Shown here: positions 4,880 through 33,568 of the stretch, one piece after another
How positions within the stretch are numbered: the first letter of the stretch is position 1
Layout of the letters: every line of letters begins with the position of its first letter
Source of the DNA: Streptomyces sp. AcH 505
GTDB lineage: Bacteria > Actinomycetota > Actinomycetes > Streptomycetales > Streptomycetaceae
DNA length: 35,161 bases
Direction: 5' to 3'
Assembly (NCBI RefSeq): GCF_000818175.1
Contig: NZ_JTIY01000002.1
Location: 1,067,673 to 1,102,833, forward strand
Notes under the pieces: generated by a model
Told to the model about the DNA's origin: nothing
The model's database searches: none
The model's input: the letters and a program-made list of their open reading frames with translations, nothing else
Translations under genes and position numbers: made by a program

Positions 4880-4900
4880 GTGGTCGTTCTCTTCGACCAC
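4880..4900. repeat. Inverted repeat in leader of lactonase-like gene
   Basis: GTGGTCG (4880-4886) and CGACCAC (4894-4900) form a perfect 7 bp stem with a 7-base loop, 11 bases before the ribosome site of the next gene. It may be an operator or a 5' leader hairpin; nothing decides between them. Confidence 0.35.
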
Positions 4901-4921
4901 CGCACACCACCAGGAGCTCTC

Positions 4922-6067
4922 ATGCGTTTCCCCGTTCGCACTGTCCGCACGGCCGCGGTCGGCATGTCGGTCGCCGCGGCCGCCCTCGTCGCGACGCCGG
5001 CTTCTGCTTTGGCTTCCGGGCATCCGTCGCAGGACCGGTCGGGCGCTCCCGTGTTCGTACAGACCGACAACACCGACGGCAACGCGGTCGTCGCGTACCG
5101 GCGGCACGCCGACGGCACGCTCTCCGCGGCCGGCACCTACCGCACCGGCGGGAAGGGAGGGGTACTTGAGGGCTCGGCCGTGGATCACCTCGCCTCGCAG
5201 GGCTCGTTGACGTACGACCAACGCCAGCACCTGCTGTACGCGGTCAACGCGGGCAGCGACACCGTGACGGTGTTCGCCGTACACGGTGAGCGGCTGGACC
5301 GGGTGCAAGTCATCTCGTCCGGCGGTGAGTTCCCCGTCAGCATCGCGGTCCACGGCGATCAGGTCTTCGTGGCCAACGCGCTGGACGGCGGGTCGATCCA
5401 GGGATATGTGCGCGTCGGCAACCGGCTGTTGAAGGTCTCGTCCTGGCACCGGGCGCTCGGCCTCGACCCGGAAGCGGCACCGCAGTTCACCAACACCCCC
5501 GGACAGATCTCCTTCACACCCGACGGCTCGAAACTCGTCGTCACCACCAAGGCCAACGGCAACAGCATCGACGTGTTCCCGCTGAGCCGGCTGGGTGCCC
5601 CTTCGGCCGAGCCGGTGGTGAACGTCGAGGCGGGCACAGTGCCGTTCGGCTTCACGTTCGACGCCGAAGGTCGGCTCGTGGTCACCCAGGCAGGGCCCAA
5701 CGCCGTCGCGACCTACCGCGTCGGGCGCGACGGCAAGGTCACGGCCGTGGACCAGCAGGCCACCGGCCAGATGGCGACCTGCTGGGTCGTCCGGGTCGGT
5801 GACCGGCTGTACGCGTCGAACGCGGGCAGCGGCAGTCTCTCCGGTTTCCGCGACGAGCACGGCGCGCTGACCGCACTGGGCGACACCGCCACCGACGGCG
5901 GCACGGTCGACACCGCCGCCTCGTCGGACGGCCGCTACCTGTACGCGCAGACCGGCAAGGACGGGAACATCGACGCGTTCCGGGTCGGCCGCGACGGCTC
6001 GCTCACGGCGATCGGCTCCGTCAACGTACCGGGCGCCGTGGGCGGCGAAGGGATCGTCGCGCTCTGA
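4922..6067 (+). CDS. Secreted beta-propeller protein, lactonase/YncE-like
   Basis: A 381-residue exported protein. Residues 1-31 are a signal peptide (basic MRFPVRTVR, hydrophobic AAVGMSVAAAALVA, cleavage near ASALA). The mature part has repeated beta-propeller blades recognisable by LLYAVNAGSDTVTVFAV, VFVANALDGGSIQGY, ISFTPDGSKLVVTTKANGNSIDVF, LYASNAGSGSLSGF and YLYAQTGKDGNIDAFRVGRDGSL, as in the 7-bladed lactonase/6-phosphogluconolactonase-like group. AGGAG (4912-4916) is 5 bases before ATG 4922; a longer GTG start at 4880 would bury the signal peptide and is rejected. The family name does not prove lactonase activity; many secreted members are of unknown function. Confidence 0.85.
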   Translation: MRFPVRTVRTAAVGMSVAAAALVATPASALASGHPSQDRSGAPVFVQTDNTDGNAVVAYRRHADGTLSAAGTYRTGGKGGVLEGSAVDHLASQGSLTYDQRQHLLYAVNAGSDTVTVFAVHGERLDRVQVISSGGEFPVSIAVHGDQVFVANALDGGSIQGYVRVGNRLLKVSSWHRALGLDPEAAPQFTNTPGQISFTPDGSKLVVTTKANGNSIDVFPLSRLGAPSAEPVVNVEAGTVPFGFTFDAEGRLVVTQAGPNAVATYRVGRDGKVTAVDQQATGQMATCWVVRVGDRLYASNAGSGSLSGFRDEHGALTALGDTATDGGTVDTAASSDGRYLYAQTGKDGNIDAFRVGRDGSLTAIGSVNVPGAVGGEGIVAL

Positions 6068-6311: not shown

Positions 6312-6797
6312 ATGAATGACGCTCTGCACCCCGGGGACGCCTTCCCGTCCCTCACCGTCACCGTGCCCGGCGGTGAGAAGGTGGAGCTGCCCGAAGCCCT
6401 GAGTGGACAGTTCGGCGTGGTGCTCTTCTACCGGGGGTCCTGGTGCCCCTACTGCAACGCCCAGTTGCGGGCCTTCCAGCGTGCCCAGGAGACGCTGAAC
6501 GAGCTCGGCGTGAAGGTCGTCGCGCTCTCCGTCGACGACGAGGACACCACCCGCGCGCTGGTCGAGAAGCACAAGCTGACGTTCCCTGTGGGGCACAGCG
6601 CCGACGCACGAGCCGTCGCCGCGGTCACGGGCGCCTTCGTCAACCCCGGCCCGGAATACCTCCAGTCCACCGGATTCGTCCTCGACCCGCAGGGGCAGGT
6701 CATCGTCGCCGTCTACTCCAACGGCGCCATAGGACGTCTCGTCCCCGAAGATGTCGCTGGCCTGATCAAGTACGTCAAGGAGCACGCGGCGAGCTGA
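6312..6797 (+). CDS. Peroxiredoxin/thioredoxin-fold redoxin (AhpC/TSA family)
   Basis: A 161-residue cytoplasmic redoxin. After a strand-loop start (LHPGDAFPSLTVTVPGG) comes VVLFYRGSWCPYCNAQL with Cys45 and Cys48 in a W-C-P-Y-C motif, then the peroxiredoxin-like LGVKVVALSVDDEDTTRALVEKHKLTFPVGHSAD and a final FVLDPQGQVIVAVYSNGAIGRL. The CxxC in place of the usual TxxC points to the actinobacterial 'peroxiredoxin-like' group that may reduce peroxides or disulfides. AGGAG (6301-6305) is 6 bases before the ATG; a longer in-frame extension from 6156 has no conserved sequence. A strong terminator follows directly. Confidence 0.87.
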   Translation: MNDALHPGDAFPSLTVTVPGGEKVELPEALSGQFGVVLFYRGSWCPYCNAQLRAFQRAQETLNELGVKVVALSVDDEDTTRALVEKHKLTFPVGHSADARAVAAVTGAFVNPGPEYLQSTGFVLDPQGQVIVAVYSNGAIGRLVPEDVAGLIKYVKEHAAS

Positions 6798-6843: not shown

Positions 6844-6877
6844 GCGCGCGTCACAGTCCTGCGCGCGTCACAGTCCT
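6844..6877. repeat. Perfect 17 bp tandem duplication
   Basis: GCGCGCGTCACAGTCCT occurs twice back to back (6844-6860, 6861-6877). The right copy contains the stop codon of the zf-HC2 gene (6868-6870), the left copy is just beyond it. It looks like a recent slippage duplication with no effect on the protein. Confidence 0.85.
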
Positions 6878-7083
6878 GCGGCGAAGGTGACCGACCGCAG
6901 CAGCCCCTGGTAGTCCTCGGAGCACGGCCCGCACGCACGCAGATGTGCCTCCACGCCGGGCATCGCCTCGCTTCCGCCGGCGGCCAGTTCCGCGTATACA
7001 TGCAGGGCTGCCATGGCCTGTCCGCATCCGACGTCCTCGGGGTCGGTGCGAAGGAGGTTGTCCAGTGTCGTGGTGTCGATCAT
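6868..7083 (-). CDS. Small zinc-finger (zf-HC2) anti-sigma-like protein
   Basis: A 71-residue protein with the zinc-binding pattern of ZAS-type anti-sigma factors: Cys20, then His47-x3-Cys51-x2-Cys54 in GVEAHLRACGPCSED. The LHVYAEL and CGPCSEDYQGLL segments are typical of the short partners of a particular actinobacterial sigma-70 group. It has no membrane helix, so it would be cytoplasmic. Its ATG overlaps the TGA of the sigma gene by ATGA (7080-7083), implying translational coupling. Because the sigma gene is interrupted by a TGA codon, this partner may now be without a full-length target. Confidence 0.8.
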   Translation of the reverse strand: MIDTTTLDNLLRTDPEDVGCGQAMAALHVYAELAAGGSEAMPGVEAHLRACGPCSEDYQGLLRSVTFAAGL

Positions 7084-7808
7084 GAGGGCCTCGCTGTGTC
7101 CGTGTCCAGGAACCCCTGGGCGACCAGCCGGTCGCGCAGTTTCCGCCGGGCGTCGAACATTGTCTTGTAGACGGCGTTGCGGTTGGTCCCCAGCCGGTCC
7201 ACCAGCGCGTCGAGCGGCACCGCGTCGAGGACGAGCGCCGTGAAGATCCGGCGCTGGTGAGCGGTCAGAGTCTCGTCGACCGCTGTGCGCAGGGCTATGA
7301 CCAGCGCCCGGGCCTCGGACTGGGCGGCCGGGTCGAGGCCGAGCCGATCGGGCAGCCGCTCCCAGTCCTCGCTTTCCAGTGCCACGGCGGCGGATCGTCA
7401 GAAATGCCGGCCGACCTTGGCCGACACCTCGAACACCACGAAAGTGAACGCCCAGGTGGTGAACTTGCTCTCGCCGCGGAACCGCCCCACCTTCCGGACG
7501 ATCGCCAGGAGGGCGTCCGAGGCCGCCTGCTGGGCCAGGTCGTCCAGTTCGGGACCGGTGATGTTGTGACTGCCGCAGCGCCGCGCCAGCTCCGAGTGCG
7601 CGATCCGCAGCAGCACCTCATGGAGGCGGGTGCAGGCATCCTCGAAGACGCCGCCCTCCGACAGCAGCGCCCGCACCCACCACTCCGACTCCGGATCGAA
7701 CGCGCGCCGCCCGGCCGCCGCCGGCCCCGATTCGGCGCCGAGGCCGTCCGGCGGACGATCTCCGTCACGTCCCGTTGTACCGAATGCATGCGATGTAATG
7801 GATGCCAT
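7080..7808 (-). pseudogene. ECF-type sigma factor split by one in-frame TGA
   Basis: Two ORFs in the same frame make up one sigma factor. Codons 1-136 (7808-7401) end in the region 2 block LDDLAQQAASDALLAIVRKVGRFRGESKFTTWAFTFVVFEVSAKVGRHF. Codon 137 is TGA (7398-7400). The frame continues as RSAAVALESEDWERLPDRLGLD and then region 4, HQRRIFTALVLDAVPLDALVDRLGTNRNAVYKTMFDARRKLRDRLV, ending at 7080. In relatives I recall, GRHF is followed by W-R, so a single TGG-to-TGA change explains the break. Region 4 could restart at GTG 7385. Options are a recent pseudogene, a sequence error, readthrough (the TGA is followed by C), or two separate polypeptides. Start ATG 7808 has a weak AGGG upstream. Confidence 0.8.
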
Positions 7809-8051: not shown

Positions 8052-9587
8052 TTGACCATCGCAGGTGTGCGCAGGAAAGCTCCGCTGTGGCTGGCCACGG
8101 CGGCCCTCGCGGCCGGCCTGGCCGGGTGCAGCGGGGACAGCGGCGGCGGCGCGCCGGACACGGACAGGGAGAGTCCGAGCGCCAGCGCGCAGCGTACGGA
8201 TTCGGCCCAGTCACCGAACATCGTGTGGGTGCTGACCGACGACCTCTCGTCGGACCTGGTGACCTACATGCCCCACGTGAAGGCCATGCAGAAAAGCGGT
8301 CTGACCTTCTCCAACTACACGGTGACGGACTCGCTGTGCTGCCCGTCGCGTTCGTCGATCTTCACCGGTAAGTTCCCGCACAACACAGGGGTGTTCACCA
8401 ATATGCCCCCGGACGGCGGCTTCGAGACCTTCCATGAGAAAGGGAACGAGGACAAGACCTTCGCCACCGCCCTCCAACAGCAGGGCTACCGGACCGCGAT
8501 GATGGGCAAGTACCTCAACGGCTATCAGCCGGACATGACCGTGAACGGCAAGAACAACTACGTACCCCCGGGCTGGAACGAGTGGGACGTGGCCGGAAAC
8601 GGCTACAAGGAGTACGACTACACACTCAACCAGAACGGCAGGACGGTCGACTACGGGCACGACCCGGCCGACTACCTGACCGATGTCGTCAGCGCAAAGG
8701 GCCAGGAGTTCATCGAGAACTCGGTGAAGGCGAAGAAGCCCTTCGTGCTCGACATCTCCACGTTCGCGCCGCACGGCCCGGCCACCCCGGCCCCCGAGGA
8801 CCAGGGCGCGTTCAAGGACCTGCCGCTCCCGAAGCCCCCGGCCTTCGACAAGACCCCGACCGACGCCCCGCAGTGGCTCAAGGACAAGAAGTCCTTCACT
8901 CCTCAGCAGATCACGAAAATCACCAAGACGTACCGCAAGCGCGTTCGCGCCGTGCAGGCGGTCGACCGCATGATCGGTGACCTCCAGGAGAAACTGAAGA
9001 AGGCAGACGTCTACGACAACACCGTCTTCGCCTTCGCCTCCGACAACGGCTTCCACATGGGTCAGTACCGCTTGATGCCGGGCAAACAGACGGCCTTCGA
9101 CACCGACGTGAACGTACCCCTGGTCGTCACGGGACTGGGGGTCAAGCAGGGCGCCACGACCAAGGCGGTCGCCTCCAACATCGACATCTGCCCGACCTTC
9201 ACCGAACTGGGCGGCGGCAAGCCCGACCCGGAGACCGACGGCCGCAGCCTGGTGCCCCTGCTGCACGGGGGAACTCCGGAAGACTGGCCGCAGACCGCGC
9301 TGGTGGAGCACCACGGGCCCAACACCTCTCCCCAGGACCCCGACAAGCCCGGTAAGGGCAGCGGCAATCCGCCGAGCTACGAGGCGCTGCGCACCGGCCG
9401 GTACACGTACGTCGAGTACAAGAACGGCTCTCACGAGTACTACGACCGCAGCAAGGACCGGGACATGCTGCACAACGTCTACGCCCAACTGTCCTCGGAC
9501 ACCAAGAAGAACCTCGCGTCCACGCTGCTGAAGCTCCAGGACTGCAAGGGCTCGGAAGAGTGCACCGCCGCGGCCCGAACCGACTGA
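8052..9587 (+). CDS. Lipoprotein sulfatase (arylsulfatase/GlcNAc-6-sulfatase type)
   Basis: A 511-residue surface enzyme predicted to hydrolyse sulfate esters. Residues 1-26 are a lipoprotein signal (RRK, hydrophobic core, LAGC with Cys26 lipidated). IVWVLTDD (57-64) gives metal-binding aspartates. SLCCPSRSSIFTG contains the sulfatase signature C-x-P-S-R with Cys96 expected to become formylglycine. MMGKYLNGYQP, APHGPATPAPE and FASDNGFHMGQYRL are further conserved blocks. TTG at 8052 is the start: AGGAGGAG (8039-8046) lies 5 bases upstream. It is divergent from the broken sigma factor and is followed by the DUF1800/DUF1501 pair with a shared upstream motif. Substrate is not evident. Confidence 0.92.
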   Translation: MTIAGVRRKAPLWLATAALAAGLAGCSGDSGGGAPDTDRESPSASAQRTDSAQSPNIVWVLTDDLSSDLVTYMPHVKAMQKSGLTFSNYTVTDSLCCPSRSSIFTGKFPHNTGVFTNMPPDGGFETFHEKGNEDKTFATALQQQGYRTAMMGKYLNGYQPDMTVNGKNNYVPPGWNEWDVAGNGYKEYDYTLNQNGRTVDYGHDPADYLTDVVSAKGQEFIENSVKAKKPFVLDISTFAPHGPATPAPEDQGAFKDLPLPKPPAFDKTPTDAPQWLKDKKSFTPQQITKITKTYRKRVRAVQAVDRMIGDLQEKLKKADVYDNTVFAFASDNGFHMGQYRLMPGKQTAFDTDVNVPLVVTGLGVKQGATTKAVASNIDICPTFTELGGGKPDPETDGRSLVPLLHGGTPEDWPQTALVEHHGPNTSPQDPDKPGKGSGNPPSYEALRTGRYTYVEYKNGSHEYYDRSKDRDMLHNVYAQLSSDTKKNLASTLLKLQDCKGSEECTAAARTD

Positions 9588-9687: not shown

Positions 9688-11076
9688 ATGGGAAGGACAC
9701 TTGACAGCCGGGCACACGTGACACGTCTGCTGCAACGCACGGGGTTCGACGCCGTGCCGGACGCCGTGGACGCCGCGCGGAAGGCCGGGTTCGAGGCCAC
9801 GCTCGAACGCGTGCTGACCCCAACAGGAGCTGACCGGGGGGCCGATGCGACGCCCGCCCCTGAACCGGGCCCTCTGCCGGCGCGCAACTCCGAGACCCAG
9901 CAGAAGCGTGCACAGAAATCCGGGGACGGTACGGAACCGAAGAAACCCGGGGACGACCCCGTCCGCAAGCACTACCGCGAAGTTCTGCGGCAACAGCGCG
10001 AAGAACTCACCCAGTGGTGGCTGGAGCGCATGGTGGCCGCCGAGCATCCATGGGTGGAGAAGCGGACGCTGCTGTGGCACAACCACTGGGCCACGTCCAT
10101 CCAGAAGGTCAAGTCCGCTGCGGCGATGCTGCAACAGAACGAAACGCTGCGGCGTCTGGGCGGAGGCGATTTCCGCGAGCTGGCCCGGGCCATGGTGGTC
10201 GACCCGGCGCTCATGGTGTGGCTGGACGCCGACGGCAGTGTCGCCGAGGCGCCGAACGAGAACCTCGGCCGGGAGCTGATGGAGCTCTTCGTGCTCGGGG
10301 TCGGCCACTACACCGAGTCCGACGTGCGCCAGGCAGCCGCCGCCCTCACCGGGTGGACCGTGGACCGGCGTGCCCATCCGTGGAAGGCCCACTTCAAGCC
10401 GCGCAGGCACGACCAGGGACAGCAGACCGTGGTGGGTGAGACGGCCGATTTCTCCGCGCGGACGCTCATCGACCACCTGGTGAGCCTGCCGGACTCGCAC
10501 GGCCACGTGGCCACCCGCATGTGGGGCGCCCTGGTGAGCAACGAGAACAAGCCCTCGAAGACCGCACTGGCACGCGTCACGGCGGCCTACGGGCAACAGC
10601 GCGACACAAAGGCCATGTTCCGGGCGGTGTTCACCGACGAGGCGTTCGCCGACGCCGACAACGTACTGGTGAAACAGCCGGTCGAATACGTGGTGGGCAG
10701 TCTGCGGGCGCTGGGAGTACACCCTTCCGCACTGCCGCAGAAGGCTCGGAGGCAGTTGCTGACCCGCACCCTGACGGGTCTCGGCCAGACGCCGTTCGCA
10801 CCGGACAGCGTGGGTGGTTGGCCCGCCGGCGCGGCATGGCTCACCACTGCCGCCGCCCAGGTGCGGATCACCTTCGCGCAGCAACTCGTACGCCACGCCG
10901 AGCTCGGCGACGTGGCCGCGGCCGCCACAACCGAGCGCCCGGATCTGCTGGCTCGCAAGCTCGGGGTCGGCGCCTGGAGCGCGGCCACACGCGAGGTGCT
11001 GCGAGCGGCCGCACACGATCCCCGCAAGGTGACGGCCGTCGCGCTGACCGCACCCGAACACCTCGTCCTGAGCTGA
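9688..11076 (+). CDS. DUF1800 family protein
   Basis: A 462-residue protein of the DUF1800 family, recognised by RAHVTRLLQRTGFDA at the start, WWLERMVAAEHPWVEKRTLLWHNHWATS (about 110-137), NENLGRELMELFVLGVGHYTESDVRQAAAALTGWTVD (about 190-226) and QPVEYVVGSLRALG (about 330). A charged Ala/Pro-rich insert near residues 48-90 is variable. No signal peptide is visible. Family members are almost always encoded next to a DUF1501 protein, as here 13 bp downstream; their joint biochemical role is not established. There is no clear Shine-Dalgarno sequence before the ATG, so initiation may be leaderless or use another signal. Confidence 0.88.
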   Translation: MGRTLDSRAHVTRLLQRTGFDAVPDAVDAARKAGFEATLERVLTPTGADRGADATPAPEPGPLPARNSETQQKRAQKSGDGTEPKKPGDDPVRKHYREVLRQQREELTQWWLERMVAAEHPWVEKRTLLWHNHWATSIQKVKSAAAMLQQNETLRRLGGGDFRELARAMVVDPALMVWLDADGSVAEAPNENLGRELMELFVLGVGHYTESDVRQAAAALTGWTVDRRAHPWKAHFKPRRHDQGQQTVVGETADFSARTLIDHLVSLPDSHGHVATRMWGALVSNENKPSKTALARVTAAYGQQRDTKAMFRAVFTDEAFADADNVLVKQPVEYVVGSLRALGVHPSALPQKARRQLLTRTLTGLGQTPFAPDSVGGWPAGAAWLTTAAAQVRITFAQQLVRHAELGDVAAAATTERPDLLARKLGVGAWSAATREVLRAAAHDPRKVTAVALTAPEHLVLS

Positions 11077-11089
11077 AGGAGAGAGCCCC

Positions 11090-12334
11090 ATGGACACCTG
11101 GACGCGACGAAGGTTCCTCATCACGAGCGGTGTGGCCGGGGGAGTCGCGCTGGCCGCCGGAGCCACCGCCTGGGGCGTGGACGAATTGCTCGCCACCGGT
11201 TCCGGCGCCGCCGACAGTGACGCGGCGACGCTGGTGCTGGTCACCCTGTACGGAGGCAACGACGGCCTCAACACCCTGGTGCCCGCCGCCGATTCGCACT
11301 ACCAGAGCCTGCGCGGCGATCTCGCCTACAGCGCGGACGAGGTGCTCCCCCTGGGCGACGGACTCGGCCTCAACCCGGGGATGAAGCGAATGAAGGAGCT
11401 GTGGGACGACAAGCAACTCGCGGTCGTACGCGGCGTGTCCTACCCCAAGCCGGATCACAGCCACTTCCGCTCGATGGCGATCTGGCAGACCGCGTCCCCG
11501 TCCGGTCCGCTCCCGTCGGGCTGGCTGGGCCGCTGGCTGGACCACGAGGGCGGCGCGAATCCGCTCATGGGCGTCTCCGTGGGCGCCACCCTGCCGCCGC
11601 TGATGGCCGGCGAGCGGACAGCGGGCGCGGCTGTCCGGCTGGGCGGCGCGAAACTGCCGGACGCCTGGCAGCGCACCTGCACCGAGCTGGCACACATCGA
11701 CGACGACGCTCACCCGCTGCTGAAGCGGGCGGGTGCCTCGCTGGCCGACCTGACGAAGGTCACCTCGGCTTTCGGCGGTGCTCCGGACGCGGACCAGGAC
11801 GGCGCCGGGGGGCCGAGCGACGACGACGCGACGAACGACGCGAGTTCCGCGGGCGGCCAGAGCGGGCTCGGCATGCAACTGGACGTGGTGGCCAGGGCGA
11901 TCACGTCAGGCGTGCCCACTCGCGCGTACAGCGTGAGCCTCGGCGGCTTCGACACGCACGCCGCCGAGAAGACCACCCAGTCCCGCCTGCTCGGCCAACT
12001 CGACCACGAGCTGGGCGCGTTCCTCGACCGCGTCAGAAAGACGAAGGCAGGGCAGAAGGTCGTCGTCGCCGTCTACTCGGAGTTCGGCCGCCGCCCCAAG
12101 GCCAATGCCAACCAGGGCACCGACCACGGCACCGCCGGTCCGGTGTTCCTGCTCGGCGCACCGGTCAAGGGCGGCTTCTACGGTGACCAGCCGAGCCTCA
12201 CGGACCTCACGGACGACGATCTGCGAGCGACGACCGACTTCCGCGACGTGTACGCCACCCTGCTGCGCGACGTCCTCGACACCGACCCGGCGAAGATCCT
12301 CGACGGCCACGACACGACGCTCGCCTTCCTGTGA
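11090..12334 (+). CDS. DUF1501 family protein with Tat signal
   Basis: A 414-residue exported protein. The N-terminus TRRRFLITSGVAGGVALAAGATAWG is a twin-arginine signal. The mature part has LVLVTLYGGNDGLNTLVPAADSHY (about 45-68), the conserved SHFRSMAIWQTA (about 123-134), SLGGFDTHAAE (about 282) and VAVYSEFGRRPKANANQGTDHGTAGPVFLLG (about 325-355), all hallmarks of DUF1501, whose fold is of the alkaline phosphatase/sulfatase type. It starts 13 bp after the DUF1800 stop, behind GGAGAG, and forms an operon with it. It probably acts outside the membrane with DUF1800; the substrate is unknown. It is convergent with the histidine kinase, whose stop is only 40 bp away. Confidence 0.9.
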   Translation: MDTWTRRRFLITSGVAGGVALAAGATAWGVDELLATGSGAADSDAATLVLVTLYGGNDGLNTLVPAADSHYQSLRGDLAYSADEVLPLGDGLGLNPGMKRMKELWDDKQLAVVRGVSYPKPDHSHFRSMAIWQTASPSGPLPSGWLGRWLDHEGGANPLMGVSVGATLPPLMAGERTAGAAVRLGGAKLPDAWQRTCTELAHIDDDAHPLLKRAGASLADLTKVTSAFGGAPDADQDGAGGPSDDDATNDASSAGGQSGLGMQLDVVARAITSGVPTRAYSVSLGGFDTHAAEKTTQSRLLGQLDHELGAFLDRVRKTKAGQKVVVAVYSEFGRRPKANANQGTDHGTAGPVFLLGAPVKGGFYGDQPSLTDLTDDDLRATTDFRDVYATLLRDVLDTDPAKILDGHDTTLAFL

Positions 12335-29164: not shown

Positions 29165-30436
29165 ATGACGGTTGAGAGCGAGAACGCGTCCGAGAGGCTC
29201 AGCGCGATCCTTGAGAGGATCCGCGCGCTTGGACCGACTTTGCGGGAGCGCGCGATCGCGGCCGAGCGCGCGGGCCGTCTCTCCGACGAGACGATCGCCG
29301 ATCTGGATGCCACCGGTGCTTTCAATATCGGCAGTCCTGCTGAGTTCGACGGCTATGAGCTTTCCGTTCGGCAACAGTTGGACGTTGTCTCCGAAGTCGC
29401 CAAATGGGACGGCTCGTGCGGCTGGTGCGTGTGGGTGGGAGCCTCGACGAACTGGATTCCTGCCGGTTCGGGCGCGCGCGTCGTCGAAGAGGTGTACGGA
29501 CCGAATTGGGTGGGGCCGCGCGTTGCCGGTTCGAGTCACTTCCCGGCCTCGCGGGGGCGTGCGAAGCGGGTCGAGGGCGGTTGGATAATTTCCGGCGGCC
29601 CCTGGACGTTCGGCAGCGACTCGCTCTGGGCGCCTTTCACGAACCTGGGCTGCATCGCGGACGACGGCGAGGGGCCGAACCTGGTGGGTGCTCAGGTGCC
29701 GCTGGACGAATTGCGGTTCCTCGACGACTGGCAGGTGGCGGGCATGCGCGCCACGGGCAGTGTCTCCTGCACGCTCGCCAGTGACGAGCTCTTCGTCCCG
29801 GATTACCGCTGCGTCGACTTCCGCGACATCGTCGGCGGAACTCTCGACAACGGCCTCAAGGGATCAATCTGGAAGGCGCCCTCGCTCGGCTGGGCGTTCA
29901 GCCTCATGGCCGGGATGTCGATCGGCATCGCCCAGGGCGCCCTCGATCGCTTCATCGAGCGTTCCGCCGGCCGGTCGATTCGCGGCACGACGTACAAGAA
30001 CCAGTTGGAAGCCCCCCTCACCCATTTGATGCTGTCCGAGGTCCACTCCAAGATTCGGTCCGCGACGTTGATGGCTCGTGCCAACGCCGATGAGACCGAT
30101 CGACTCGGTGCGCTCGCGGCAGCGGGAACACCGGCGGATCCGGAATACATGCAGAAATTCAGCGCACGGGTCCTCGTGGAGACGGCCTACTCGGCAAAAT
30201 GGTGCGCGGAGGCGATCGAGCTGTTGCAGCGAAATTCCGGATCAACCGCGATCATGGATTTCGAGCCGATCCAGCGAGCGTGGCGTGACGCGCGGGTGAT
30301 CACGTTGCACGGTGCGCTGAACCTTGAGGCTCTTTCTGAGAATTACGGGCGGCTGATGGCAGAAATGCAGCCGCATCAGTTCGCGGGAATCACCACGCTG
30401 GATCGGTTTGCGCCGGCCCCGGTGAAGACTTCCTGA
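29165..30436 (+). CDS. Acyl-CoA dehydrogenase-fold flavin monooxygenase, oxygenase component
   Basis: A 423-residue flavoprotein of the acyl-CoA dehydrogenase fold, close in pattern to group D two-component monooxygenases such as HsaA and the HpaH-type oxygenases. Visible parts are an N-terminal helical domain (ERAGRLSDETIADLDATGAFNI...), the KWDGSCGWCVWVGASTNWI segment, the middle beta domain with GGWIISGGPWTFGSDS and DDWQVAGMRATGSVSCTLASDELFVPDYR, and a C-terminal helical bundle. These enzymes use reduced flavin supplied by a partner; a flavin reductase is encoded at 33569-34735. AGGAGGT (29154-29160) is 4 bases upstream of the ATG. Third-position A/T codons are more frequent here than in neighbours, hinting at transfer. 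Substrate unknown, probably aromatic or steroid-like. Confidence 0.85.
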   Translation: MTVESENASERLSAILERIRALGPTLRERAIAAERAGRLSDETIADLDATGAFNIGSPAEFDGYELSVRQQLDVVSEVAKWDGSCGWCVWVGASTNWIPAGSGARVVEEVYGPNWVGPRVAGSSHFPASRGRAKRVEGGWIISGGPWTFGSDSLWAPFTNLGCIADDGEGPNLVGAQVPLDELRFLDDWQVAGMRATGSVSCTLASDELFVPDYRCVDFRDIVGGTLDNGLKGSIWKAPSLGWAFSLMAGMSIGIAQGALDRFIERSAGRSIRGTTYKNQLEAPLTHLMLSEVHSKIRSATLMARANADETDRLGALAAAGTPADPEYMQKFSARVLVETAYSAKWCAEAIELLQRNSGSTAIMDFEPIQRAWRDARVITLHGALNLEALSENYGRLMAEMQPHQFAGITTLDRFAPAPVKTS

Positions 30437-30656: not shown

Positions 30657-32990
30657 TCACCTCGCCGGCACGATCGGCAACTGCACATAGCTCGGATGGG
30701 CCGGTCCGGTGCGGACCGTGTTCGTCGCGCCTACGTGATAGCTCTCGTCGTAGGCGCGGGACGGCAAGCCGGCGGGTGAACAGGGCTGAACGTCAATCCG
30801 CAGCCTGCACCCCGCTCGGATCAACGCACTGCTGGGACAGAGCCCCAGCTCGATCTCGACGACTTCGCCGGCTTCGAGCGGGCGGTGATCCGCCTCGGTG
30901 TGCGTGTGGACCGGCCAGTAGTCCGTCGACCTCGTGTCATCGATCGCGCGGTGCGACACCTTGAGCAATCCATGACCAACGGGATGAATGTGCGTCGGGT
31001 CGATGGGAGGGACCAACGACTCGTAGCGGATTTCACGGTCATGCTCGTCGATCACGCGCAGGGACACGAAGACATCCATGTCGCTGCTCGTCGACGACAC
31101 CCACAATCCGGCCTTCATGTACCCGGCCAGCACGACGTCCTCGGTCAGCGGATCGCTGACGAAGGAGACGCCTGTCGACCAGCGCGGAGTGCCGCCGGCG
31201 AACCCGGTGGGCGCCAATATCGGCTGCCCGCGGTCGAGATGGGCGTCGTAGCTCGCCGACCCTTCGGCGGCGGGGATCGTCTCGCCGATGCGCAGGAAGT
31301 CGGTCCGACGCCCGTCTCCCGTCCAGTCCGACGGTTCGGCATTCAGGTACCAACGACGGTACGTGGTACGCGCGATGGGCCACGCCGCCTCCTCCGAGAC
31401 GTAGTGCCCGCCGTTGCCCGTCCTGACCTGGACCCGAACCGGTGCACCGGTCGTCGCGCCGTTGTCCAGCCCCTTGAGCCAGTGGTCGAAGAAGTCCATG
31501 TGTTCGGCGATCGTCGAGTCCGCGTAGCAGTGCGGGAACCACGCGTCGACGAAGTCGAACTTCTTCGCCTGGGTGCCGGTCGAGTGGATGAAGGTTTCAC
31601 TGCTGCCCAGTTGGTGGATGACGACGCCGGTCTGAGGACCGACGATCCACACCGGCACGGTCGCCTTCTCGATCTCGGGACGCATGAAGATCGACCCCTG
31701 AGTACCGTACGCGGCGGGGTCGTTGAACGGGGTGGCCAGCAGGCGTTCCCGCCAGTCCGTTTCCCGCCGCTCGCCGCAGTGGTTGTGACCGGCCATCGCC
31801 ACTCCCCACCAGTTCCAGAAGCCTTCCCCGAACAGACCGCCGCCGTAAAGGGCCTCGTTGTACAGATCGGCGTCGGTACCCAAGGCGATCATGGCCTTGA
31901 GGTGGGGTGGTTGCAGGCTCGCGACGGTGTGCTGGGTGATCGCGAGGTAGGACATTCCCCAGAGCCCGACATTGCCGTTGGACCAGGGCTGTGTCCCCGC
32001 CCACTCGATCGCGTCGTAGTAGTCCTCTGCCTGTTGCACGCTGAAGGGCGCCTGTAGTCCGGGGCTGTTGCCCACGCCACGGGCGTCGACCCGAATGCAC
32101 ACGTAGCCGTTCGGCACCCAGACGGACGAGTCCACACTCTCGTGGTTCTCGTACTGAAGACCGTCCGGGTTCCCCGTGAAGTAGCGGTCCTCCAGCTCCT
32201 CCTTTCGCGCCGCGTCCTCTTCGCCACAGATGCAGCCGTGATCGAAGCTCTTCCCGTAGAACCCCTTGTTCATGACCACGGGATGCCGGCCGTCGTCGGC
32301 CGGGCGGAAGACGTCCGCACAGACGAAAGACCCGTCGCGCAGCGGGATCTTGACGTCTGTCATCTTGACGATGCCGCGAATGTTGCGCCGAAGCTCGTTG
32401 CGTGCGGCAGCGGCGTCGCGGAGCCTTCTGGGGTGGTTCGCCGTGAAGACGCCGGGCGTCGCGTTGAGTTTCTCCAACAGCCCGGTCACCACGGGGTCGT
32501 CGGCGAAGACGGCCGTGCGGTCGCCGGCGAAGGAGACCATGCGGTCGGGTGACGGGTCGTTGGATGCGGCTGCTGCGTCAGCCGCCCTGGCCGCGTCGGT
32601 GTCCGCCTGGTTGAGGTTGATGACGGTCGGTCCGACGAGTTCGTGCACGATCGGGGCGATCGTGACACCGTTCTCGACGTCGCCATCCTGATCCAGTGTC
32701 TGGACCAGCCGCGCGAGGTTGGTCACGATCGGGTCGTGGAGTCTGTCGATCTTTCCGTCGGCGCGGTTGACGAGTTGGGCCAGGTTCAGTCTCGGCGCAC
32801 CCTTGGCCGATCCCAGGACGAGCCCACCGACCAGGAAGACGACCGTCTCGCCTTCCCTGTACTGGAATTCACCGCGTTCGTCGGTGACACCCGTTGTCGT
32901 GGGTGTCTGATACCTGAGGCCGGCAACCGGGCCGGCGAAGACACCGGTGGCGAAGTCCGTCGCGTGCCGGGGCGCAGTGGTGTCGGTCAT
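30657..32990 (-). CDS. CocE/NonD-type hydrolase with an unusual N-terminal domain
   Basis: A 777-residue protein. From about residue 208 it is a CocE/X-Pro dipeptidyl-peptidase-type hydrolase: KIPLRDGSFVCADVFRPADDGRHPVVM, CIRVDARGVGNSPG, the nucleophile Ser347 in GLWGMSYLAITQ, the WLKGLDNG segment, and a C-terminal jelly-roll (LAGYMKAGLWVSSTSSDMDVFVSLRVIDE...) ending RLRIDVQPCS. It should cleave an ester or amide. Residues 15-205 are extra: GPVAGLRYQTPTTTGVTDERGEFQYREGETVVFLVGG and NLARLVQTLDQDGDVENGVTI resemble a repeat domain of secreted or surface proteins, yet no signal peptide is visible. The ATG overlaps the SnoaL-like stop (ATGA). An internal ATG at 32363 could give the hydrolase alone. 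Confidence 0.87.
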   Translation of the reverse strand: MTDTTAPRHATDFATGVFAGPVAGLRYQTPTTTGVTDERGEFQYREGETVVFLVGGLVLGSAKGAPRLNLAQLVNRADGKIDRLHDPIVTNLARLVQTLDQDGDVENGVTIAPIVHELVGPTVINLNQADTDAARAADAAAASNDPSPDRMVSFAGDRTAVFADDPVVTGLLEKLNATPGVFTANHPRRLRDAAAARNELRRNIRGIVKMTDVKIPLRDGSFVCADVFRPADDGRHPVVMNKGFYGKSFDHGCICGEEDAARKEELEDRYFTGNPDGLQYENHESVDSSVWVPNGYVCIRVDARGVGNSPGLQAPFSVQQAEDYYDAIEWAGTQPWSNGNVGLWGMSYLAITQHTVASLQPPHLKAMIALGTDADLYNEALYGGGLFGEGFWNWWGVAMAGHNHCGERRETDWRERLLATPFNDPAAYGTQGSIFMRPEIEKATVPVWIVGPQTGVVIHQLGSSETFIHSTGTQAKKFDFVDAWFPHCYADSTIAEHMDFFDHWLKGLDNGATTGAPVRVQVRTGNGGHYVSEEAAWPIARTTYRRWYLNAEPSDWTGDGRRTDFLRIGETIPAAEGSASYDAHLDRGQPILAPTGFAGGTPRWSTGVSFVSDPLTEDVVLAGYMKAGLWVSSTSSDMDVFVSLRVIDEHDREIRYESLVPPIDPTHIHPVGHGLLKVSHRAIDDTRSTDYWPVHTHTEADHRPLEAGEVVEIELGLCPSSALIRAGCRLRIDVQPCSPAGLPSRAYDESYHVGATNTVRTGPAHPSYVQLPIVPAR

Positions 32991-33511
32991 TTCGCCTGGA
33001 TCGCCTTCAGGAACGCGATCTTTCCTTCGGCGGCGTGGGTGCTCAGAACGTTCAGGTTCATGTCCGGGTCGTGGTCCCCGTGCGGCTCGGGGACGAGCGG
33101 GTTGCCGCTCCAGGACTGCAGTCGGCACACGCGGTGTCGGATCCGCCAGCCCTGATCGGTCCGGACGAGCTCGTCGTCGTACCAGCCCGTCCCGAGCCAG
33201 GTGGGGCCGCCCTCGGCCGCGTTCCGTACGAGGAGCCAGTTGCCGTAGCTGAAGGCGTAGGCCTTGTCCCCGTCGATGTGCACCAACTGGCCCATCATGG
33301 TGTGCTGGTGACTGTCCAACAGGTCGTGGAACTCGGCGAAGGAGCGCTTGAACACGGCCAGGCCCTCCCAGGCGGCCCCGGCCGGGCCGAACTCCGCGAC
33401 CACGTCGTCCGAGAAGACTCGGTCGAACAGGTCCCACTGCCGGGCGTCAAGCGCGAGGCCGTAGAGATTCAGGATCTCGATGACGGCTGCCTTGTCCTCG
33501 TACTCAGTCAT
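32987..33511 (-). CDS. SnoaL-like/NTF2-fold protein
   Basis: A 174-residue protein of the SnoaL-like (nuclear transport factor 2) fold: EDKAAVIEILNLYGLALDARQWDLFDRVFSDDVVAEFGPAG at the start, then HQHTMMGQLVHIDGDKAYAFSYGNWLLVRN and TGWYDDELVRTDQGWRIRHRVCRLQSWSGNP. Members are cyclases, dehydratases, isomerases or ring-hydroxylation helpers; the His pair in DSHQHTMMG is typical. ATG 33511 follows GAGAGAG; a GTG at 33532 has no ribosome site. The stop overlaps the CocE start, and it is 57 bp after the flavin reductase, so the genes are one operon. Confidence 0.85.
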   Translation of the reverse strand: MTEYEDKAAVIEILNLYGLALDARQWDLFDRVFSDDVVAEFGPAGAAWEGLAVFKRSFAEFHDLLDSHQHTMMGQLVHIDGDKAYAFSYGNWLLVRNAAEGGPTWLGTGWYDDELVRTDQGWRIRHRVCRLQSWSGNPLVPEPHGDHDPDMNLNVLSTHAAEGKIAFLKAIQAK

Positions 33512-33568
33512 GCTGCTGCTCTCTCTTCTCACTAGCTGTTCTGGACGGTGTTGCTGTTGGCGCGCCGG

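Follow-up and report, generated by a model that had tools for sequence, protein, structure and literature searches.

An ECF sigma factor gene of Streptomyces sp. AcH 505 interrupted by a single in-frame TGA, probably as a recent nonsense allele

ECF (group IV) sigma factors have their two domains, sigma-2 (region 2) and sigma-4 (region 4), on one unbroken chain, and one-piece proteins of this kind are the closest described relatives of the gene reported here, e.g., those of Streptomyces sp. NRRL F-5126 (L043), S. hyaluromycini (L069) and Saccharopolyspora soli (L044). The motif Hx3Cx2C is given as the signature of zinc-binding class I anti-sigma factors (PMC7406223). A natural sigma factor in two parts, SigO-RsoA, is listed for Bacillus subtilis; according to the same listing SigO consists of sigma-2 and sigma-3 and RsoA of sigma-4, both being dedicated proteins of 22.5 and 9.0 kDa, respectively (PMC10141391). 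For an engineered ECF20 that was divided and fitted with split inteins, output in the absence of a driving interaction is described only at high expression (PMC8566587), which suggests, as far as this description goes, that two separate domains are insufficient by themselves in an engineered system. Among the stop codons UGA is cited as the leakiest, with readthrough of at least 1e-2 to 1e-3 in Salmonella and E. coli (PMC4989110).

The window, i.e., the whole stretch of 35,161 nucleotides that was analysed, covers positions 1,067,673-1,102,833 of contig C2 in a genome of 9.0 Mb and 27 contigs. Its minus strand carries at 7808-7080 a frame of 242 codons, closed by a regular TGA and broken once, by a TGA at codon 137 (Table 1). 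Translation yields 136 residues, TGA, 105 residues and TGA, so that the single in-frame stop between two halves in the same frame, as claimed in an earlier sequence-only reading, is correct, and the C directly behind the internal TGA is likewise confirmed. Due to this TGA the two domains do not lie on the unbroken chain of an ECF sigma factor. Sigma70_r2 matches the N half with an E of 1.6e-4 and 21.8 bits (cut-off 24) and Sigma70_r4_2 the C half with an E of 1.9e-4 and 21.4 bits (cut-off 25.7), both below the Pfam cut-offs. Against TIGR02937 (sigma70-ECF, cut-off 42.9) the halves alone likewise stay below the cut-off with 20.2 and 25.8 bits, and the frame in which the stop is read as a residue exceeds it with 47.0 bits. 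Each half aligns to one-piece relatives with up to 68-69% identity, and on these alignments the interrupted frame is more than a chance arrangement. The second-best match to the sigma factor in this genome has only 29% identity, which leaves the gene without a close second copy. None of the titles and abstracts found in the literature describes an ECF sigma factor broken by such a stop.

Table 1. Features of the interrupted sigma factor locus; positions refer to the window.
Feature	Position	Strand	Basis
Codons 1-136 (N half) of the ECF sigma factor gene; sigma-2 (region 2)	7401..7808	-	translation, Sigma70_r2, model
Internal TGA (codon 137) with C as the next base; column occupied mostly by Trp in relatives	7398..7400	-	translation, alignment
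Codons 138-242 (7397-7083; C half) with the regular stop codon; linker and sigma-4 (region 4)	7080..7397	-	translation, Sigma70_r4_2, model
GTG, restart codon proposed in the sequence-only reading; without Shine-Dalgarno pairing	7383..7385	-	pairing computation
Gene of a 71-aa probable zinc-type anti-sigma factor, ATGA overlap with the sigma stop	6868..7083	-	HLRACGPC (Hx3Cx2C), overlap
AhpC/TSA peroxiredoxin gene, possible target	6312..6797	+	PF00578, E 2.2e-22
Lactonase-type beta-propeller gene, possible target	4880..6067	+	PF10282, E 2.6e-17

Relatives were taken from a scan of 84,980 species with one genome per species, from which records very near the window's genome are possibly left out; the scan provided 304 relatives, of which the best 80, with no more than 68% identity over the best segment, were used. 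The one-piece ECF sigma factors of the type of L043, L069 and L044 share with the window's gene the sigma-2/sigma-4 layout, up to 68-69% identity and an overlapping small ORF with a zinc motif, but they possess a single open frame and Trp at the column of the window's stop. Trp was also named for the relatives in the sequence-only reading, and rightly so: the column displays 77 W, 2 R, 1 A and no stop in the best 80 of the 304 relatives, and 15 W and 1 R in 16 further matches which overlap with those 80. The few homologues with Arg at this position (L065, L093, L138, L005 and L006, of which L005 and L065 are apparently one gene) suggest that Trp is not strictly required. Relatives closer than 68-69% identity were found neither among the best 80 of 304 in the species scan, nor in overlapping genome samples, two from genus and family (392 and 394 genomes) and two from the genus (393 and 305), nor among 150 relatives obtained by DNA. 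A relative at E <= 1e-80 occurs in only 9 of 393 genomes of the genus, the window's genome counted; the sigma gene is therefore dispensable in the genus, and most members are without it.

Departures from the family are few in the sigma gene. The window deviates at 2 of the 73 columns that are at least 85% conserved (the stop column excluded), and 35 of the best 80 of 304 relatives display more departures, even with the stop counted against the window. Apart from the stop the sigma-2/sigma-4 frame is well conserved, although the branch of the N half is long: the terminal branch of the window measures 0.44 in the N-half tree (rank 5 of 81), compared to an ordinary 0.21 in the C-half tree (rank 28 of 81). 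By these branches the part behind the stop shows no visibly faster decay and the N half has changed more than that of most others, which weakens the argument from conservation for the N half. In a simulation of neutral mutation of the same gene, the probability of at most two departures and no new stop was 0.33 at 2% divergence, 0.12 at 3% and 0.0065 at 5%. Provided that the gene has had no use since it acquired the stop, these probabilities put the age of the stop below roughly 3-4% neutral divergence, a model-based bound in which indels are ignored. The 2 departures in 73 columns and the ranks of the branches are compatible with a pseudogene only as a young allele.

The position of the stop within the protein can be read from an AlphaFold2 model built from 49 family sequences (mean pLDDT 81, pTM 0.52), which consists of sigma-2 with a final helix at 116-139, a low-confidence linker, and sigma-4 helices from about 160 to 230. 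Region 2 of E. coli sigmaE (Z 10.6, rmsd 2.6, 90 aligned) and region 4 of M. tuberculosis SigL (Z 9.8, rmsd 1.8, 73 aligned) are among the structural matches of this model; a search of solved structures by sequence returned no match. Because the modelled helix 116-139 is followed by the linker, the stop at codon 137 is, according to the model, in the last turn of the final sigma-2 helix.

The anti-sigma partner was held to be kept and coupled in the sequence-only reading, and it is indeed present with its ATGA overlap. Among 81 loci (the window and the best 80 of 304 relatives), 62 have an ORF with Hx3Cx2C behind the sigma gene, and in 60 of the 81 the next ORF starts with the same offset of one base. 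With 2 departures in 26 conserved columns, in comparison with 61 relatives, the 71-aa gene looks intact. The protein resembles class I anti-sigma factors, as these are characterised in the source cited above, in its Hx3Cx2C motif, its shortness and the location of its gene right after the ECF gene. Unlike them, it matches none of the Pfam and NCBIfam models, and its binding to the sigma factor is only predicted. Judged from the motif and the gene order it fits a putative small soluble zinc-binding class I anti-sigma factor. In nine Streptomyces loci (L074, L077, L081, L083, L084, L085, L090, L098 and L103) no Hx3Cx2C ORF was found after the sigma gene; these look like a Streptomyces subgroup with different regulation.

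In 30 of the best 80 of 304 relatives a homologue of the beta-propeller gene is located no more than about 4 kb away from the sigma gene, which suggests a functional link of the lactonase-type gene with this ECF family. A peroxiredoxin homologue is near the sigma gene in 8 of the same 80, and both the lactonase-type and the peroxiredoxin gene are plausible candidate targets of the sigma factor. A conserved autoregulatory promoter of the form GGAAT-N15-CGTC, a pair of elements present 62 nt upstream of the sigma start, was considered and dropped, because the pattern occurs in only 4 of 80 upstream regions (window included) compared to 43 of 1312 control stretches. In the wider surroundings, a sulfatase gene (8052-9587, PF00884) precedes adjoining DUF1800 and DUF1501 genes (9688-12334, plus strand; PF08811, PF07394). 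Further along the window an acyl-CoA dehydrogenase/hydroxylase-like gene (29165-30436, plus strand) adjoins a gene for an X-Pro dipeptidyl-peptidase-type hydrolase (Peptidase_S15, PepX_C; 30657-32729, minus strand), beside which a SnoaL_4 gene is located (about 32987-33532, minus strand).

Contig C2 was scanned by codon bias for other broken genes. The scan recovers 476 of 552 simulated Trp-codon breaks, and a stricter version of it misses the window's own stop. It flagged 32 in-frame stops with coding-like flanks, including that of the window; 30 of the 31 others were read across and compared to Pfam at E <= 1e-4, and the remaining one lay at the edge of a stretch. No listed Pfam match spans the stop in 28 of these 30 cases, and as three of the 30 are without any Pfam match, a break is possible there. 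Pyr_redox_2 across the stop at L190:3777-4679 (23.3 bits, below the cut-off of 26.1) and Beta-lactamase across the stop at L174:18739-19602 (32.9 bits, above the cut-off of 27) were both judged to be alignment overreach; the Beta-lactamase match overlaps a short-chain dehydrogenase domain that ends at the stop. A nearby next start codon does not decide such a case, because the window's stop itself has one four codons on. The scan thus gave, in our judgement, no second convincing break on contig C2. The short frame at L174:19189-19602 (C2 about 399,189-399,600), located after the short-chain dehydrogenase gene and with only a C-terminal Beta-lactamase profile match, is possibly a gene remnant.

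We interpret the interrupted gene as probably a nonsense allele of recent origin, at most leaky, of an ECF sigma factor present in a single copy. This is the fresh pseudogene that the sequence-only reading had named among its options, and it is supported by a frame-breaking change present in none of the best 80 of 304 relatives and by the lack of other decay. The strongest competing explanation is an error of one base in the draft assembly, because the comparison contains no close strain and the nearest relative has 68-69% identity; the gene of the organism would then be intact and the stop not real. We consider such an error rather unlikely, though well worth bearing in mind. The assembly is a scaffolded draft, contig C2 includes 105 runs of N (not all of which are necessarily gaps), and a sigma gene without other decay, broken in isolation on its contig, is what a wrong base would look like. 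However, the isolation also speaks against a high error rate, with one convincing case on a contig of 1.47 Mb, and nonsense alleles are a frequent natural occurrence in bacterial genomes. An isolated event of this kind fits a natural mutation and a base error alike, either of them being rare.

The remaining explanations assign a function to the stop. UGA followed by C is a leaky context, and Trp, inserted via tRNA-Trp, is the usual residue at a misread UGA. As the relatives mostly carry Trp in this column, misreading by tRNA-Trp would restore the family residue, and regulated or constitutive readthrough could provide low or stress-dependent amounts of full-length sigma factor. The C half is still conserved, and the absence of further decay is equally expected under readthrough. 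We nevertheless regard readthrough as improbable, given that the stop is shared by none of the best 80 of 304 relatives nor by the 16 further overlapping matches; with the nearest relative at 68-69%, this is compatible with a short-lived, lineage-specific use. The 80 nt of RNA behind the stop fold no better than shuffled sequences (-31 kcal/mol versus a mean of -34.7 for the shuffles, z +1.0; 172 of the 200 equal or exceed it in stability). Selenocysteine at the UGA was rejected, as all matches to selB and tRNA-Sec in the genome remain below cut-off. The best selB match reaches 208.5 bits (cut-off 242.25), and the second-best is in a frame read as EF-Tu-like with runs of N. The best tRNA-Sec match reaches 45.8 bits (cut-off 47) and is called tRNA-Ser by ARAGORN, which assigns five of the six tRNA-Sec candidates to ordinary tRNAs (Ser, Trp, Gly, Cys, Met) and makes no call for the sixth. 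What stands of the readthrough switch in the sequence-only reading is thus the general leakiness of UGA, the leakiest stop in the source cited at the outset, and the C next to it; the unshared stop, the unremarkable fold and the lack of selenocysteine machinery above cut-off speak against it. A more elaborate form, in which the lineage keeps an ECF sigma factor behind a leaky UGA, makes the full-length protein only in traces or when stress lowers decoding accuracy, and has an abundant sigma-2 fragment as a potential competitor for RNA polymerase or sink for the anti-sigma factor, appears highly improbable to us. A two-piece sigma factor, with a sigma-2 fragment that ends at codon 136, a sigma-4 fragment that starts at GTG 7385, and both together on RNA polymerase, has the slightest prospects of all and would be a surprise. 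Its strength is the location of the break between the domains, at the sigma-2/linker border of the model, which would leave both of them nearly whole. If both fragments were made, sigma-2 and sigma-4 would be on separate chains as in the SigO-RsoA pair; in contrast to the dedicated proteins listed for B. subtilis, the window has one interrupted gene, the second piece of which is without a visible start signal. The in-frame GTG proposed for the restart exists, but it pairs with the anti-Shine-Dalgarno end at 0.0 kcal/mol (rank 954 among 1004 minus-strand ATG/GTG triplets), compared to -6.2 at the sigma start and -7.0 kcal/mol at the anti-sigma start. Starts without Shine-Dalgarno occur in Streptomyces. 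The following in-frame starts (7220, 7202 and 7160) are already inside sigma-4, the best 80 of 304 relatives are one-piece at this site, and the split ECF20 described above likewise argues against unaided assembly of two domains. The place of the break thus favours the two-piece proposal of the sequence-only reading, but the GTG named there as restart shows no such pairing. Specific support is absent for the readthrough and the two-piece readings alike.

If the TGA is a recent nonsense allele, translation would mostly terminate at codon 137, and its product would be a sigma-2 fragment that lacks the domain for reading the -35 element. The regulon would lose its dedicated activator, perhaps including the genes of the lactonase-type protein and the peroxiredoxin, and translation of the anti-sigma factor, the start of which overlaps the proper sigma stop, may be lowered. 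Traces of full-length protein could come from ordinary UGA leakiness. The finding is nothing out of the ordinary, an isolated nonsense codon of recent origin or an assembly error. As it stands it matters little: a regulatory gene with a patchy distribution carries, in one copy, a nonsense allele or a wrong base. It calls for caution insofar as an annotation pipeline may give two fragments that can be mistaken for a split sigma factor. Should readthrough be shown, the locus would represent an unusual example of a sigma factor governed by the efficiency of termination, and if the more elaborate leaky-UGA scenario applied, a stress regulon would be switched by the rate of termination itself.
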